From positions 1 to 35,866 of the forward strand of contig CALFAM010000199.1 in assembly GCA_937948815.1 (NCBI GenBank): a DNA stretch of 35,866 nucleotides, in the 5' to 3' direction. The translations under genes and the position numbers were made by a program. Positions 1,555 to 9,080 of this stretch are shown one piece after another. The notes under the pieces were generated by a model. That model ran no database searches, was not told the DNA's origin, and saw nothing but the letters and a program-made list of their open reading frames with translations. The stretch comes from an uncultured bacterium (GTDB lineage Bacteria; Acidobacteriota; Thermoanaerobaculia; Multivoradales; J023). The stretch's first letter is position 1, and every line of letters starts with the position of its first letter.

Positions 1555-3303
1555 CTACGTTCGCCAGCCCGCGACGGGATCGAGGCCGAGCTCTCGTTCG
1601 ACGGGGGGCGGAGGCGGTGGCGGGCCGGTGAAGAGCTCCCGCTTGCCCCCGAAGGTGTCGAGCACGACAGCGCCCAGCCCCATGGTCCAGGCCAGGTAGC
1701 GGACGCAGAAGCCGACGGCGAGCAAGAGTATGCCGAGCGCGCCAAAGGGGAAAAAGAGGCGATCGAGAACTTCACCGACCAGCGACAGCCCCTGAATGCT
1801 CAACACACCGAGGAAGGCAACCACCAAGGGGCCATCGCCCTGTCGTCCCAAGCGTCGGCTCAGCCAATTGCCGACCGCAGCAGCCGCGCTGGCGTAGCCG
1901 AGAAGCGATGCCAGCACCATGACGATCAACACGACGGGGATCAGCAGCAGCAGCGGAATTCCGATGATCGACACCAGCAAGACGAGCGAGGCAATCGCCA
2001 GTAGTGGCAGGGTGGCGACCTGAACGGCAAGCCCGGTGGCAGCCGCTCGCCAGGGCGTTGTGTGCAGGCGGCGCGTCAGGCGGTCGGTCGCGCGGCGCGC
2101 CGTGAGCAGCAGGATCAGTGTGATCACGATCAGCAGCCCGGCATTGACCAACCGTTGGAACACGGCGGGGCTACCGAGGTCGAACCATTGCCACCGGTCC
2201 AGCCGGTAGTCGGTCCAGTCACCAATCCAACCGTCATGCCAAGGAAGATCCCGCCGCCAGGTCTCTCGCTCCCGGCGCTCCCGGGCCGACATTCGCGCAC
2301 CGTCTCCGCCCCGCGAAGCCGACGCTGGTTCGTCCTCACCCTCCAGCCAGCTCAGCGGTCGTCCGGTGGACACCTCGCTGATGCTGCCACGCACCCGGGC
2401 GCCGCGTGCGCGTCGAACCTCCCCGCCGACCGCTGTCGCATCTCCGCCGATCTCGGCATCCGGCCCGAGGATGATCGAGCCACCGACCGAAATCACGTCA
2501 CCGCGTACCGTACCTTCGACCTGCACCGAGCCACCGACCGCGACCGCGTCGCTGCGGACTTCGCCGAGCACGGTGACGCCGCCGAGCACCGCGACGGCTT
2601 CGCTGGCCGTCTCGTCGTGCTCGACGCGAACATCGCGAAACAGCCGAAATCGGTCGCCGCCCCGGCGCTTCGGCGTCGCGCCATGGTTCTTCCGCTCCTG
2701 TTCGCGATCACGGCGCGCGGCCTCATGTTCCTGTTCACGCGCCGCACGCTCCTCGGCACGGACTCGACGCTCGGCTTGCTCCTCACGCTCGCGCGCCGCA
2801 CGCTCCTCTTCGAGCGCTTGCTGATCGGCATCCGCCTCTGCGGTGCTGTCGCGACGCGCACCTCTCGGTACCCGATCGTCTGGGTCTCCGGTCTCGTCAC
2901 GGTCACGACCGTCGAGATCACCATGGCTACGCTCACGATCGGCATCGAGAAGCTGGCGTGCCGCCCGCAGCGCAGCAGGATCAGCGGTCAGCGCGGCCAG
3001 CGCGCGCAAGTGCTCGGTGTCAGCCTGGCCGACCCGCGCCCGGAGCTCCTCGTCGTTCACCGGCTCGCCATCGATGGCGGCCGCACCAGCCCGAACCTCG
3101 ACCAGCACTGAATCCTTGCCGGCCGACGTCTGCAAGGCATAACCGTCGGTCAGCGTGTGCACGACGAAGTGAGCCTCGAGGCGCGCCAGCAGCTCGGACA
3201 GGTCCTGAGCGCCAACCGCGGGCGCGGTCAGCAGCAAGGCCAGGGCAATGAGGGCTCGTGTGCAGAAAAGGCTAGGCGATTTCCAGCGGCGAGATCGATG
3301 CAT
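1555..3303 (-). CDS. Secreted/membrane protein with bactofilin-like repeat domain and C-terminal membrane segments
   Basis: The track starts this ORF at 3462, but the ATG at 3303 gives a proper signal peptide (RALIALALLLTAPAVGA) and overlaps the upstream gene by 32 bp, so I use it (582 aa). Order of parts: signal peptide 1-32; a helical region; a very charged Glu/Arg coiled-coil-like stretch about 158-208; a repetitive region about 233-312 with units like AVAVGGSVQVEGTVRGD, typical of bactofilin or polymer-forming beta-solenoid domains; a linker rich in Trp, Arg and Asp; then several hydrophobic segments including LLIVITLILLLTA and ASLVLLVSIIGIPLLLLIPVV. The tail is a run of prolines. It is third in an operon after an ECF sigma factor and an anti-sigma-like protein, so it may be the output or sensor of an envelope-stress circuit. 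Exact function unknown. Confidence 0.85.
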   Translation of the reverse strand: MHRSRRWKSPSLFCTRALIALALLLTAPAVGAQDLSELLARLEAHFVVHTLTDGYALQTSAGKDSVLVEVRAGAAAIDGEPVNDEELRARVGQADTEHLRALAALTADPAALRAARQLLDADRERSHGDLDGRDRDETGDPDDRVPRGARRDSTAEADADQQALEEERAAREREEQAERRVRAEERAAREQEHEAARRDREQERKNHGATPKRRGGDRFRLFRDVRVEHDETASEAVAVLGGVTVLGEVRSDAVAVGGSVQVEGTVRGDVISVGGSIILGPDAEIGGDATAVGGEVRRARGARVRGSISEVSTGRPLSWLEGEDEPASASRGGDGARMSARERRERETWRRDLPWHDGWIGDWTDYRLDRWQWFDLGSPAVFQRLVNAGLLIVITLILLLTARRATDRLTRRLHTTPWRAAATGLAVQVATLPLLAIASLVLLVSIIGIPLLLLIPVVLIVMVLASLLGYASAAAAVGNWLSRRLGRQGDGPLVVAFLGVLSIQGLSLVGEVLDRLFFPFGALGILLLAVGFCVRYLAWTMGLGAVVLDTFGGKRELFTGPPPPPPPVERELGLDPVAGWRT

Positions 3304-3838
3304 CAGAGGCGTCCACGGCGAGCAGGCGGCCGAGCCAAGTGAGCGCGCCAGCACAGGCGAGCACCGTGACGAGCACGACCAGAGCACCATCAGGACTGCT
3401 GAGCAGCGACATGGCCAAGAGGCGCATGCCATCCAACAGCTCCCAGCCAAAGCGCGCCACACGCGCGCCAGCGGCCAGCAGACTACCAGCGCGAATCGTG
3501 CCGGCAGCGAAGAGGTTGGAGCCTGAGAGGCTGGTGAGCATCAAGGTCGCACCGGCCAAGGACAGCGTCGTCCAAGCGCCGACCACCAATCCGATCAGCA
3601 CATATCGACGCCCTGCGGGCTGTCGCGGCACCGAACCTTCGGCGGCCGCGGCGGCCAGGACTCGCGATGTGAAGTCGGCTGCAGGCGCTGGCCGATCGAC
3701 CCGATCGAACCACGCCGCGAGGGCAGCCTCGGCCGCCGGCACGTCGTGCTGTGACTCAGCGCCCAGCCAGGCAGCGATCTGCTGCCGGTCGCGCCGCGAG
3801 CCCTTGGGTCGCTTTTGCTTGATGCTCGTCTCGCTCAC
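3272..3838 (-). CDS. Putative membrane anti-sigma factor
   Basis: The product is 188 aa. The N-terminal half is soluble and contains WFDRVDRPAPAADFTSRVLAAA, a pattern common in the cytoplasmic part of anti-sigma factors. Hydrophobic segments follow (VLIGLVVGAWTTLSLAGATLMLT, one around ELLDGMRLLAMSLL, and ALVVLVTVLACAGALTWLG). No HxxxCxxC zinc anti-sigma motif is present. It starts with GTG eight bases after the sigma factor stop, next to a GGGAGG, and its 3' end overlaps the bactofilin-like gene. Position right after an ECF sigma gene is the main reason for the call. Family assignment is inferred from context. Confidence 0.7.
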   Translation of the reverse strand: MSETSIKQKRPKGSRRDRQQIAAWLGAESQHDVPAAEAALAAWFDRVDRPAPAADFTSRVLAAAAAEGSVPRQPAGRRYVLIGLVVGAWTTLSLAGATLMLTSLSGSNLFAAGTIRAGSLLAAGARVARFGWELLDGMRLLAMSLLSSPDGALVVLVTVLACAGALTWLGRLLAVDASDASISPLEIA

Positions 3839-3846
3839 GGCCTCCC

Positions 3847-4515
3847 CTACGCCGGTGCCGTTCGCCGTGTTTCGCGCGCCGCGTTGCGTGCCGCCGCTGC
3901 CTTGCGCTTGCCGTGGCCCGCGACGGGCATGTCGAAGCCGAGGGTCTGGAGCTGCTCGGCCAAATGCTTGCGGGCGCGATGAAGATGGATCTTGACGGTC
4001 CCCATGGGCAGACCTGTGACCTCACAGATCTCGTCGTAGGCCAGCCCCTCCCGGAAGCGCAACTCGAGGATCTGTCGATAGGCCGGACGCAAATTGCCGA
4101 GCGCCTGACCAACCGCCGCCCAAAGCTCTCCTCCTGCAGCAGCCAGATCGGGTGCCTCGCTCTCCGGCGCCAGAACCACCTGTCCGCCGTCTTCGGGCGT
4201 CGGCTCACCGTGAGGGTTCAGCGGCACCATCGTCGGCTTGCGACGTCGCAGATAGTCGAGCGTCGTGTTGTGCGCGATGGTAAAGAGCCAGCTCGCAAAG
4301 CGTCGCTCGGGGTCGAAGCGCCCGAGGTGACGAAACGCCTTCAGGAACGATTCCTGTGCCAGGTCCTCAGCGACCGTCGGATCGCCGACGAGCCGCAGAA
4401 TCACGGTGAGAACCGGCCGCTCGAATCGCTTCATCAGGGCTCGGTAGGCGTCCTGAGAGCCATCCAGTGCACGCTGGACAAGCTCGGCGTCGGAAAGAGA
4501 TCGTAAAAATGCCAT
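3847..4515 (-). CDS. ECF-type RNA polymerase sigma factor (sigma-70 family)
   Basis: Region 2 begins near SDAELVQRALDGSQDAYRALMKRF and includes the core-binding DLAQESFLKAFRHLGRFDPERRFASWLFTIAHNTTLDYLRRRK. Region 4 is AYRQILELRFREGLAYDEICEVTGLPMGTVKIHLHRARKHL, a promoter -35-binding HTH. There is no region 3 or 1.1, as in group 4 (ECF) sigma factors. A basic, alanine-rich tail of about 30 residues follows. An in-frame TAG lies just upstream, so the start is confined to GTG (4518) or ATG (4515), both overlapping an AAAGAGGTGAT Shine-Dalgarno-like stretch. It leads an operon with the anti-sigma-like and bactofilin-like genes. Its own promoter may be at 4732-4760, or there may be another in the ~140 bp after the terminator. 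Confidence 0.95.
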   Translation of the reverse strand: MAFLRSLSDAELVQRALDGSQDAYRALMKRFERPVLTVILRLVGDPTVAEDLAQESFLKAFRHLGRFDPERRFASWLFTIAHNTTLDYLRRRKPTMVPLNPHGEPTPEDGGQVVLAPESEAPDLAAAGGELWAAVGQALGNLRPAYRQILELRFREGLAYDEICEVTGLPMGTVKIHLHRARKHLAEQLQTLGFDMPVAGHGKRKAAAARNAARETRRTAPA

Positions 4516-4657
4516 CACCTCTTTCTACGGAATCGGCGGGACGAAGTTCTGTCCTGGCGTTCTGAATTGCCCGCCAGGCGCCACCAGATAGACCGGCATT
4601 ACCCAGAGGCTGCCGACGGCTTCCGACCTCGGACAACTTTTTCGTGCTTTTTCGGAC

Positions 4658-4689
4658 AAAAAAAAGGAGGGGCGCTGTGTACGCCCCTC
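4658..4689 (-). terminator. Rho-independent terminator (minus strand)
   Basis: On the minus strand GAGGGGCG and CGCCCCTC form a perfect 8-bp stem with a 7-nt loop (4689-4682 with 4674-4667), followed after one C by eight T residues. It could end uppP transcripts, the candidate small RNA, or both. It sits between the 4732-4760 promoter and the ECF sigma start. Confidence 0.85.
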
Positions 4690-4725
4690 GTTGGGAGGGA
4701 TGAGAGGAGGATTTTGCCCCCTCGC
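4658..4725 (-). ncRNA. Candidate small regulatory RNA (about 68 nt) with anti-Shine-Dalgarno motifs
   Basis: A near-consensus sigma-70 promoter (4732-4760) would start transcription near 4725, and a strong intrinsic terminator ends at about 4658, giving a compact RNA of about 68 nt. Between a G-rich 5' end and the terminator stem the transcript is pyrimidine-rich and carries UCCUCC and CCCUCCC, which are complementary to ribosome-binding sites (GGAGG). Exposed CU-rich anti-SD motifs plus a 3' terminator with a U-run describe many trans-acting small RNAs. No ORF of interest is in the segment. The alternative is that this is the attenuated leader of the ECF sigma operon. Entirely sequence-based; no family recognised. 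Confidence 0.5.
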
Positions 4726-4731
4726 GCAAAG

Positions 4732-4760
4732 AAGATACACCGGGTTTTTCCCGGTGTCAA
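4732..4760 (-). promoter_or_regulatory. Sigma-70 promoter with an inverted repeat filling its spacer
   Basis: The minus strand reads TTGACA, 17 bases, TATCTT: a perfect -35 and a 4/6 -10 at optimal spacing. An 8-bp perfect inverted repeat, ACACCGGG-AAAAA-CCCGGTGT (4737-4757), fills the spacer and touches both hexamers, as an operator for a dimeric repressor would. Transcription would start near 4725 toward the small-RNA candidate and the sigma operon. Confidence 0.65.
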
Positions 4761-4830: not shown

Positions 4831-5643
4831 CTACCGAAACGCAAGCAAGAGCAAGATCGACGCCCCGAGAACAACGCGGTAGACGACAAACCAAGAAAGG
4901 CTCGAACGCTCCAGCCAACGAAGGAGGAAGTCAATGACGGCGTAGGCTGACACCAGCGAGACGACAAACCCAATCGCCAAGGCTTGGCCCGAGACCATCC
5001 CGGCCTCGGTCGAAGCCGGCGCGAGCAGAAGGTCGGCGGTGTCCTTTATCCAGGCCAGCAGGCCGACTGGAATGGCCAGCAAGAAGGAGAAGCGGGCCGC
5101 CGATGTTCGCTTCATTCCGAGCGCGAGAGCCGCAGTCATGGTAATTCCCGAGCGCGACGTGCCAGGAATCAATGCGAGGGCTTGGGCAACGCCTATGACG
5201 GCAACGTCACGCCAGGACAGCGTCTCGAGGCCACGGGAACGAGCGCCGATGCGATCTGCCCAGCCGAGCATCAAACCGAATCCCAAGGTCGTCAGGCCGA
5301 TGACAAAGGGCGTTCGTGCGCCTTCGGTCAGGAAGCCCTGAAAGACCAGGCCGAACGCCACCACAGGAATCGTGCCGACGAGCGCGCCGCGCATCGGCCC
5401 CGGCTCGCGCCAGTGGCGGACGAACGCATTGTTGGGTCCTCGAAAGAAGGCGACCAGGGTCTTGCGAAAGTAGATGATCGCCGCCAGCAGCGTCCCTGCG
5501 TTGGTGACCACGGCGAACCGCAAGCCGGCATCCGGCCACCCGACCACATATGGGACCAGGATCAAATGCGCGGTCGAGCTGATGGGAAGAAACTCGGTGA
5601 CGCCCTGGACCAGGCCAAGGACGATCGCCTGTAGGCTCGTCAT
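4831..5643 (-). CDS. uppP: Undecaprenyl-diphosphatase UppP (BacA)
   Basis: This integral membrane enzyme removes a phosphate from undecaprenyl pyrophosphate, recycling the lipid carrier for peptidoglycan and O-antigen synthesis. The 270-aa length is normal. Both family signatures are present: QGVTEFLPISSTAHL at about residues 13-27 (catalytic Glu and the Ser/His region) and PGTSRSG in the middle. The common ISSSGHL reads ISSTAHL here, a variant I also associate with Acidobacteriota. Hydrophobic segments run throughout. GGAG lies nine bases before the ATG. It is divergent from rfbB, so lipid-carrier recycling sits beside sugar-nucleotide synthesis. Confidence 0.97.
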   Translation of the reverse strand: MTSLQAIVLGLVQGVTEFLPISSTAHLILVPYVVGWPDAGLRFAVVTNAGTLLAAIIYFRKTLVAFFRGPNNAFVRHWREPGPMRGALVGTIPVVAFGLVFQGFLTEGARTPFVIGLTTLGFGLMLGWADRIGARSRGLETLSWRDVAVIGVAQALALIPGTSRSGITMTAALALGMKRTSAARFSFLLAIPVGLLAWIKDTADLLLAPASTEAGMVSGQALAIGFVVSLVSAYAVIDFLLRWLERSSLSWFVVYRVVLGASILLLLAFR

Positions 5644-6987: not shown

Positions 6988-7557
6988 ATGTCCCAGCCCG
7001 AAGAGATGTTTCGCCCCACACGGATTCCAGACGTCATTCTGGTCCAGCCTCGGGTCTTCCGCGACGAGCGGGGATTCTTTCTCGAGACGTACCACGACCT
7101 GCGGTATGCCGAGGGCGGGATTGGCGAGACCTTCGTCCAGGACAACCACTCGAAGTCGACCCAAGGCATCTTGCGTGGCTTGCACGCCCAGGAAAAGCAG
7201 CCTCAGGGCAAGCTCGTCCGGGCCGTCGAGGGTCGGATTTTCGACGTCGCCGTCGACATTCGACGTGGCTCCCCGACGTTTGGCCAGTGGGTCGGCGAAT
7301 TCCTGTCGGCGGACGATTTTCGCCAGCTCTACGTCCCGCCGGGATTCCTCCACGGCTTCTACGTGGTCAGCGAGACCGCGCAGGTCGAATACAAGTGCAC
7401 CGCGCGCTACGACGCTGCCGACGAGCTGGCCGTGCGATGGAACGATTCCGAGATCGGCATCGACTGGCCCGCGGGCACGCCCCAACTCTCTGACAAGGAT
7501 GCTGCTGCGCCGACGCTGCGCGAGGTCTGGGACCGGCTGCCCACTTTTCAAGCATGA
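6988..7557 (+). CDS. rfbC: dTDP-4-dehydrorhamnose 3,5-epimerase
   Basis: This cupin-fold epimerase acts on the product of rfbB to give dTDP-4-keto-L-rhamnose. The true product is 189 aa from the ATG at 6988; the track ORF adds 95 shadow residues. Visible signatures are [29 protein letters not shown] with the catalytic His66, [37 protein letters not shown] and [10 protein letters not shown]. The usual RGLHYQ reads RGLHAQ. It overlaps the next gene by ATGA. rfbA and rfbD are not in the window and must lie elsewhere, unless another gene replaces them. Confidence 0.96.
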
Positions 7558-9080
7558 CGGAATTGAGCGCACGAGACCGGGCGCAGCTCGAGCAACACGG
7601 CCTCGACCTCACCGAAGCCGAGCGCCAGCTCGATCTGCTGCGTCAGCCGCCAGCACCGATCCGCCTGCTCCGTCCTTGTACGCTCGGCGATGGCGTTCGC
7701 CGTTTGGACGAGGTGGACGGCACCGTCCTCGAGCGAGCTTGGGATGCGGCAGCGGCACGCGGCCGACTGTCGAAGCTGGTTCCCGCCAGCGGCGCCGCCA
7801 GCCGCATGTTTGCTCCCCTCGTCGCGCACCATCAGGGAACCGGCGGCGAACGCGAAGCCGAAGCTTGCCAGCGCTTTCGCCGTGATCTCCCCCACTTTGC
7901 CTTCTTTCCCCAGGTCGCCGAACGGCTTCGCCTCGCACACGGGGCTCGCAGCCTCGACGCCGTCGACGATCACGACCTCCTGACCCAGGTGCTCGACGAA
8001 GGCCTGGCGCTGGCCCACAAGCCCAAGGCCTTGATTCCGTTCCACCGCGATCCGAGCACCGGCAAAGGACGCACGCCTCTCGAAGAGCACCTGCTCGAGA
8101 GCATCGGCTACATACGGGATGCCGACGGTCACTGCCGCATCCACTTCACGGTTGGAAATCCGCACCTCGCGGAGATTCGCTCCTACCTTGCCTTTGACCC
8201 GAACCGCCTGCTGATCGATCGCGAGGAAGTCTTCGAGATCGCCTTCTCGACCCAGTCTCCCGCGACCGACACCTTGGCCCTCGATGCCAATGCCCAGCCA
8301 TTCCGGAAGGATGATGGCGATTTGTTGCTGCGTCCGGGCGGGCACGGCGCGCTGCTCGCGAACCTGCAGCGGATCGGCGGCGACGTGGTCGTGATCAAGA
8401 GCATCGACAACGTGGTGCCCGCGGCGCGGCAGGCAACCGTAGCCAAGAACCTTCGCCGCTTGCTCGGCCACCTCTTGCGCCTGGAAAAGCTGGCGCATCA
8501 GGCGCTGGCCCGCCTGCACGAGCCCGACTGCAGTGAACGGGCGGTCGATGATGCCCTTCGCCTGCTCGCCGACGAGCTCAACGTCAACAACGCGCGGGAA
8601 GTTCTGCGGCGCGACGCCGACACCAAACGGACCTTTGCCCTCGATCGTCTGCACCGCCCGCTGCGTGCTTGTGGCGTGGTGCTGAACGAAGGTGAGCCCG
8701 GAGGTGGCCCCTTCTGGGTGTGTGAAGAAGACGGCCGCGTCAGTCCCCAAATCGTCGAAAGCGCCCAGGTGGATCAGCGCGACGCCGAACAGCGAGCGAC
8801 CTTCTCCCGCGCGACGCACTTCAATCCCGTGCTGCTCGCGTGCAGCCTGCGCGATCATGAAGGAAACGCCTACGATCTGCCGCGCTTCGCAGACCCCAAC
8901 CGCGCCTTCGTGGCCGAAAAGACCCAGCAAGGGCGTCCTCTGCGGGCACTCGAGCACCCAGGTCTCTGGAACGGCGCCATGGCGCACTGGAACACCGTCT
9001 TCTTCGAGGTTCCGACCGCCGTTTTCGCGCCGGTCAAGACGGTCTTCGATCTCTTGCGCCCCGACCATCAGAGCGACTGA
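7554..9080 (+). CDS. DUF4301 family protein, possible sugar nucleotidyltransferase
   Basis: The 508-aa protein resembles DUF4301, a family without an assigned reaction to my knowledge. Three motifs recall nucleotidyltransferases of the UDP-sugar pyrophosphorylase type: [11 protein letters not shown] (76-86, like the glycine-rich NTP loop), KPKALIPFH (156-164, like the KPxLP loop), and [14 protein letters not shown] followed by IKSIDNVVP (261-289, like the PGHG and DN motifs). The C-terminus has FNPVLLACS and [13 protein letters not shown]. Its start overlaps the rfbC stop (ATGA), so it is probably co-translated with rfbBC. The nucleotidyltransferase role, perhaps making a sugar nucleotide for this cluster, is inference. 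An antisense 506-aa ORF here is a shadow. Confidence 0.82.

Follow-up and report, generated by a model that had tools for sequence, protein, structure and literature searches.

Several small RNAs of Firmicutes, RsaE/RoxS among them, aim a C-rich single-stranded motif at ribosome-binding sites, and the CcsR or 'cuckoo' RNAs carry a CUCCUCCC-type motif. The latter, described in Rhodobacter sphaeroides and other Alphaproteobacteria, have a role in stress defence and are processed from a tandem array that is co-transcribed with a DUF1127 gene at the CIN1 locus (PMC10253847). The alpha-r14/NfeR1 RNA of Sinorhizobium meliloti (Rfam RF02344, ar14) acts in trans through ultraconserved anti-Shine-Dalgarno (anti-SD) motifs, CCUCCUCCC, and multiple mRNAs are its predicted targets; it folds into three hairpins that leave the motif unpaired, and its transcription is under conditional control (PMC10746234). 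Counts by phylum show that very few small RNAs have been catalogued outside the Proteobacteria and the Terrabacteria group (PMC9029176). Here we analyze a small RNA locus in a stretch of 35,866 nucleotides from an uncultured bacterium, referred to as the window herein. Its likeness to alpha-r14 lies in the anti-SD motifs and in trans action and conditional control of transcription, both of which are predicted here.

Architecture of the unit

An earlier note, made from the letters alone, had read on the minus strand of the window a TTGACA, a 17-bp spacer and a TATCTT that lead into a ~68-nt unit ending in an 8-bp GC stem and T8. Both the window sequence and our scans bear out this reading (Table 1). 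The 3.5 kb around the unit contain no sigma-70-like site other than this promoter, against 0.4 expected from shuffled sequences, and the terminator was recovered as a 9-pair match in the terminator scan. A transcript starting at about position 4725 would read GCGAGGGGGCAAAATCCTCCTCTCATCCCTCCCAACGAGGGGCGTACACAGCGCCCCTCC, followed by T8 ending at 4658. No Rfam family was found in the window at the gathering threshold, and the matches at E <= 10 were at chance level. A coding role was rejected: mechanical ORFs overlap the unit, yet no start codon inside it is conserved, which agrees with the earlier statement that no ORF explains it.

Table 1. Coordinates of the unit and of the genes on either side, as positions in the window
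Feature	Position	Strand	Remarks
Whole unit, promoter to T8	4760-4658	minus	
-35 element TTGACA	4760-4755	minus	window sequence; promoter scan
Promoter spacer		minus	17 bp between TTGACA and TATCTT
Perfect 8-bp inverted repeat ACACCGGG-AAAAA-CCCGGTGT	4737-4757	minus	fills the spacer and overlaps both hexamers
-10 element TATCTT	4737-4732	minus	window sequence; promoter scan
Predicted small RNA, ~68 nt	4658-4725	minus	conservation, folding; 5' end placed 7 nt past the -10
5' hairpin GAGGGGG-loop-CCUCCUC	4704-4723	minus	4723-4717 pairs with 4710-4704; holds the first anti-SD motif
Near-invariant core CCUCCUCUCAUCCCUCCCAA	4691-4710	minus	pairwise identity 0.993, 14 copies
Single-stranded linker UCAUCCCUCCCAAC, the predicted seed	4690-4703	minus	mean unpaired probability 0.97, window copy
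Intrinsic terminator, 8-9 bp GC stem and T8	4658-4689	minus	compensatory changes in relatives
Terminator stem GAGGGGCG/CGCCCCTC	4689-4682/4674-4667	minus	followed by C, then T8 at 4665-4658
uppP/BacA (undecaprenyl-diphosphatase)	4831-5643	minus	Pfam BacA, 5.5e-71; upstream neighbour, same strand
ECF sigma factor gene	3847-4518	minus	Pfam Sigma70_r2 and r4_2; downstream neighbour

Conservation among relatives

To follow the unit in related genomes, we used blastn and a covariance search, the latter already proposed in the earlier note, which had made its reading depend on a promoter/terminator unit conserved in relatives. That unit was found in 13 other genomes. Among 59 relatives, blastn returned strong copies in these 13, each time over the transcript. 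A covariance model run on the order (72 genomes) and the class (149 genomes) matched strongly in exactly these genomes and that of the window, 14 in all; its E-values are rough, as they come from short-calibrated models. The strong copies number 15, in 14 of the 72 genomes of the order and in four families (f1, 7/7 genomes; f6, 3/4; f7, 2/2; f8, 2/3). Families f2, f3, f4, f5 and f9 gave no strong covariance-model match, despite many good f4 genomes.

All copies retain the -35, the -10 and their spacing from the core. The -35 hexamer is 95.6% identical pairwise and reads TTGACA or TTGACT in 15 of 15 copies. The copies other than that of the window have a TAnnnT-type element as their -10. Pairwise identity of the 20-nt core reaches 99.3% (14 copies); that of the flanks (40 nt upstream, 30 nt downstream) is 29-30%, close to random. 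The UppP proteins of most carrier genomes are only ~48-59% identical. For instance, G020 shows 87% identity over 60 nt of the unit and 51% for its UppP, so that the core is kept far better than the neighbouring protein. G002 carries the unit twice in tandem, with a separate promoter and palindrome for each copy. With 14 further copies, the unit lies far beyond chance, and comparison of genomes confirms it as a real, previously uncatalogued small RNA gene, as far as sequence can do so.

Outside the order, the class-wide search left one weak candidate worth keeping, which may be distantly related and comes from a different family of the class (G147; 30 bits; L109:4824-4888, G147:C10, minus strand; also L084). 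Its core reads CCTCCTCCTCATCCCTCCC, and it consists of a hairpin AUGAGGA-UCCCUCC-UCCUCAU followed by CCCUCCC and a GC terminator. Phylum-wide matches were C-rich linkers before GC terminators that lack the core; we rejected them as homologues and take them to be analogues or chance. A separate observation concerns L199, L201 and L202 (same phylum, f20), where a C-rich linker, ACACCCCUCCCAUUCCUCC, stands before a GC terminator and is preceded by a sigma-54-promoter-like TTGGCAC-N5-TTGCT; this is a candidate for an unrelated conserved small RNA. We also noted in G006 a divergent second copy (L111:8440-8512, G006:C357, minus strand; also L081) in which CUCAUCCCUCCCA precedes a GC terminator and a C-rich loop and no TTGACA promoter is recognizable. 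The same genome has two further core-identical stretches of 17-22 nt (L160:6739-6755, G006:C432; L161:1520-1541, G006:C452), each just downstream of a transposase-like gene (IS21-like and IS3-like by eye) and each without a terminator hairpin; they are too long for chance and may be fragments, decoys or insertion scars. A mobile or viral origin of the unit was rejected, as viral contigs held no exact core and no plasmid or phage match was found.

Fold and anti-SD motifs

The transcript is predicted to fold as a 5' hairpin plus the terminator, with a z-score of -4.8 and none of 200 shuffles as stable, and both hairpins are kept across the strong copies. The earlier note had pointed to UCCUCC and CCCUCCC as complements of ribosome-binding sites. 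Both motifs are present; the correction needed is that the first is mostly paired in the 5' hairpin and that only the second is single-stranded. CCUCCUC, the 3' strand of this hairpin, is unchanged in all 15 strong copies, and the opposite strand varies between GAGGGGG, GGGGAGG and GAGGAGG with pairing possible each time through A-U/G-U exchanges. In the predicted folds of most copies, pairing takes up the first anti-SD motif and leaves UCAUCCCUCCCAA, the linker, open (0.82-0.97 unpaired). The folds of G021 and G027 favour the alternative, with the second motif paired to the 5' strand.

One terminator pair is G-C in some lineages and A-U in others. A structure-fitted alignment has 95.6% of its cells paired, and none of 500 shuffles was as good. 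It contains 7 pairs changed on both sides, a count that takes in the two divergent copies and leans towards the structure because the alignment was fitted to it; these changes were also well above slid controls. The first MAFFT alignment gave weaker figures because loop lengths differ.

Spacer palindromes and a TetR-family gene

The spacer is filled, as the earlier note had it, by a perfect 8-bp inverted repeat around AAAAA (4757-4737), which is probably the operator of some regulator. G001, of the same genus, keeps this palindrome as CACCGGG-GAAAT-CCCGGTG without a T run after it. A multi-site regulon of the window palindrome was rejected, as its own genome has one perfect copy and near-matches equal the control count. 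In the f1 relatives G002-G006, the spacer holds the palindrome ACCGACTGGTTGGT instead, with one mismatch in G005. The exact 14-mer occurs 9 times in five f1 genomes, where a random 14-mer would be expected ~0.35 times (46.7 Mb, both strands, equal base frequencies assumed). Six of these occurrences are at RNA promoters; the other three, in G003, G005 and G006, each precede an orthologous TetR-family gene, whose product matches Pfam TetR_N and TetR_C_24. Taken genome by genome, G003 and G006 have the exact site at both places, G005 has one mismatch at the RNA and the exact site at the TetR gene, and G002 and G004 have the exact site at the RNA only. This common palindrome supports membership of the RNA in a TetR regulon in G002-G006.

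The window and G001 do not have the TetR-type palindrome at the RNA promoter; both carry CACCGGG-N5-CCCGGTG there. The TetR orthologue of G001 nevertheless has a site of the TetR type (ACCAACCGGTTGGT) at its own promoter. Identity of the closest TetR relative is 43% in G000 and 48-55% in the other f1 genomes. Since the TetR gene of G001 keeps its site and the RNA promoter of G001 has the window-type palindrome, it seems that in the genus of the window the RNA left the TetR regulon and took another operator, although the direction of change is not established. A third spacer type, CACGTkGCTATT, is common to f7 and f8, and f6 has another. The view that the unit looks switchable is thus supported: an operator-like palindrome is present and relatives supply a TetR link, but that link is lineage-specific and the window palindrome has no second site.

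The surroundings of the TetR gene were also inspected. In G003, the TetR operator (L155:4702-4715) lies between the TetR gene and a gene for a thiamine-pyrophosphate (acetolactate-synthase-like) enzyme (L155:4794-6575). The same enzyme gene adjoins the TetR gene in G006 (L156), and it is possibly a clue to the TetR ligand.

Neighbouring genes

The order common to carriers is uppP, the RNA, in some genomes an opposite-strand Chalcone_3 gene, the ECF sigma gene and a bactofilin-like gene. The last corresponds in the window to a long ORF (1555-3462) that follows the ECF sigma gene downstream and is bactofilin-like by eye, with polymer-forming repeats and membrane segments, but has no Pfam match; many carriers have homologues of it on the downstream side of the RNA. 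Positions 7554-9080 of the window encode a DUF4301 protein (Pfam 1.4e-156), and many carriers have a homologue in the vicinity of uppP and the RNA. The kinds of protein encoded nearby would point to Acidobacteriota; the assembly yielded no 16S gene, and named relatives of uppP stood no nearer than those from the same order. In five genomes (G004, G012, G020, G021 and G027), the RNA stands away from uppP. The unit persists there, and it is conserved as a unit. This supports a stand-alone small RNA gene with its own predicted sigma-70-type promoter and its own terminator. A role in envelope stress, which had been put forward from the location between uppP and the ECF sigma operon, finds no backing: the RNA is kept where uppP is not adjacent, and special complementarity to the core is absent from the initiation regions of uppP, ECF sigma, Chalcone_3 and TetR when these are compared with shuffled sequences.

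Hfq and targets

Hfq is clear in all 13 of the other carriers (E <= 1.1e-14), and the assembly of the window, which is 82% complete, gives a sub-threshold Hfq match of 22.6 bits. Of two non-carriers of the order, G014 has an Hfq match and G047 has none, hence Hfq does not track the RNA strictly. The U-rich tail past the terminator stem is suggestive of Hfq binding. A search of 14 genomes for extended antisense sites (the 17-nt core complement with <=2 mismatches) gave none outside the RNA loci that was common to genomes, and matches outside these loci were about as rare as for a reversed control pattern.

Discussion

We propose, with a probability of roughly 0.6, that the locus encodes a trans-acting RNA of ~68 nt which, probably assisted by Hfq, pairs through its anti-SD motifs with several mRNAs and is controlled by a palindrome-bound regulator. 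The RNA would be transcribed from its own sigma-70-type promoter and stopped by its own terminator. Its exposed linker would pair with the purine-rich Shine-Dalgarno regions of several mRNAs and block their translation, CCUCCUC could pair as well if the 5' hairpin opens, and Hfq would probably help by acting on the U8 tail. A repressor or activator on the spacer palindrome would control transcription. For most f1 relatives, a TetR-family protein, which would bind at its own promoter as well, is the probable regulator, and in the genus of the window its site would have been replaced by the different palindrome. Hfq-assisted silencing at several ribosome-binding sites, as by NfeR1/alpha-r14, is the most economical model. 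Several observations weigh against it: the invariant core of 20 nt exceeds the length that anti-SD pairing alone needs, neither the extended antisense search nor the initiation regions of the neighbours gave a target, G021 and G027 are predicted to have the second motif masked by the 5' strand, the Hfq match of its own assembly is sub-threshold and the window palindrome stands alone in its genome.

Two readings would tie the unit to the adjacent genes. It could be mainly the transcription terminator of uppP, a double hairpin with an incidental promoter match, since in the window, as in several relatives, it follows uppP by 50-145 nt on the same strand and the spacer palindrome of the window also scores terminator-like. 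However, five genomes keep the unit away from uppP, the conserved -35/-10 spacing and core are things a terminator does not need, the tandem copies of G002 come with two promoters and the G001 palindrome has no T run, all of which makes this reading very improbable. We find a cis-acting leader or attenuator of the ECF sigma operon similarly hard to credit. The ECF gene follows on the same strand 140 nt downstream in the window and the order uppP-RNA-ECF is widespread in carriers, but the gap widens to 0.77-1.25 kb in G002, G005 and G020, the opposite-strand Chalcone_3 gene intervenes in G002, and a strong terminator with a T run is present throughout, with no anti-terminator alternative seen. 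As the unit has no conserved start codon and no Rfam match and persists without adjacent uppP, we regard it as standing alone and as neither of these elements.

The main rival that remains is a protein-binding role for the C-rich core, in which the RNA would be a sponge for Rho, a cold-shock protein, ribosomal protein S1 or a pyrimidine-binding regulator. A core that is near-invariant over more nucleotides than SD pairing needs, that is pyrimidine apart from one A up to CCCUCCC and for which the core-complement search found no conserved mRNA partner is consistent with such a role; we nonetheless hold it to be unlikely, because in most copies the core has AA at its borders and lies in part within a hairpin, unlike a typical sponge, which is open, and because Hfq is present in the other carriers tested. 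Degenerate SD pairing would account for the same 20-nt invariance less well than a single long, conserved interaction, and the small RNA might accordingly pair extensively with one or a few specific mRNAs rather than with many ribosome-binding sites. This seems rather unlikely to us, as only the RNA itself was common to the 14 genomes in a search that covered the 17-nt complement with up to two mismatches, shorter or bulged pairings falling outside it. Quite doubtful, finally, is a lineage-specific mimic of the 16S rRNA 3' end that would act globally on initiation, with the G-rich 5' strand masking now the first and now the second anti-SD motif and the regulator handed over in each lineage while the RNA stays frozen. 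The usual 16S tail is ACCUCCUUUC, and the 16S 3'-end-like ACCUCCUCUC is present in several copies.

On the proposed model of a trans-acting anti-SD RNA, the locus is well suited to the question of how the targets of a small RNA can be retained when one regulator takes the place of another: the RNA sequence is frozen across four families and promoter control differs, f1 having a TetR-type site, the genus of the window a different palindrome, and f6 and f7/f8 other shared types of spacer sequence. The TetR gene with the same operator is a concrete handle for finding the signal that induces the RNA.

Comparison with known systems

Compared with alpha-r14, which has three hairpins, the predicted window RNA has one 5' hairpin and a terminator, and the lineage differs. 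Its match to RF02344 is 13.3 bits against a cut-off of 58.8, and in place of three hairpins that each expose CCUCCUCCC there are two in all. The motif is unpaired in alpha-r14, whereas in the window RNA CCUCCUC is in a stem strand and CCCUCCC in the linker. The CcsR RNAs are processed from a tandem array, whereas the window RNA appears as a single primary unit, with tandem copies in G002 only; among the examined neighbours of the RNA (ORFs >=70 aa; DUF1127 proteins can be shorter) we saw no DUF1127 gene of the kind that partners CcsR. RsaE/RoxS differ in structure and lineage and gave no Rfam match in the window. By score, the best weak Rfam resemblance is to ncr982, a Bacillus small RNA (RF02454) with a C-rich linker before a GC terminator, and at 21.6 bits, with the cut-off at 50 and E = 0.49, this match is at chance level. 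Taken together, the lack of an Rfam match at threshold, the departures from alpha-r14 in score, hairpin number and motif placement and the lack of a DUF1127 partner among the neighbouring ORFs of at least 70 aa indicate that the window RNA, judged by sequence and predicted fold, is a new family of the anti-SD-like kind of small RNA already known in Alphaproteobacteria.
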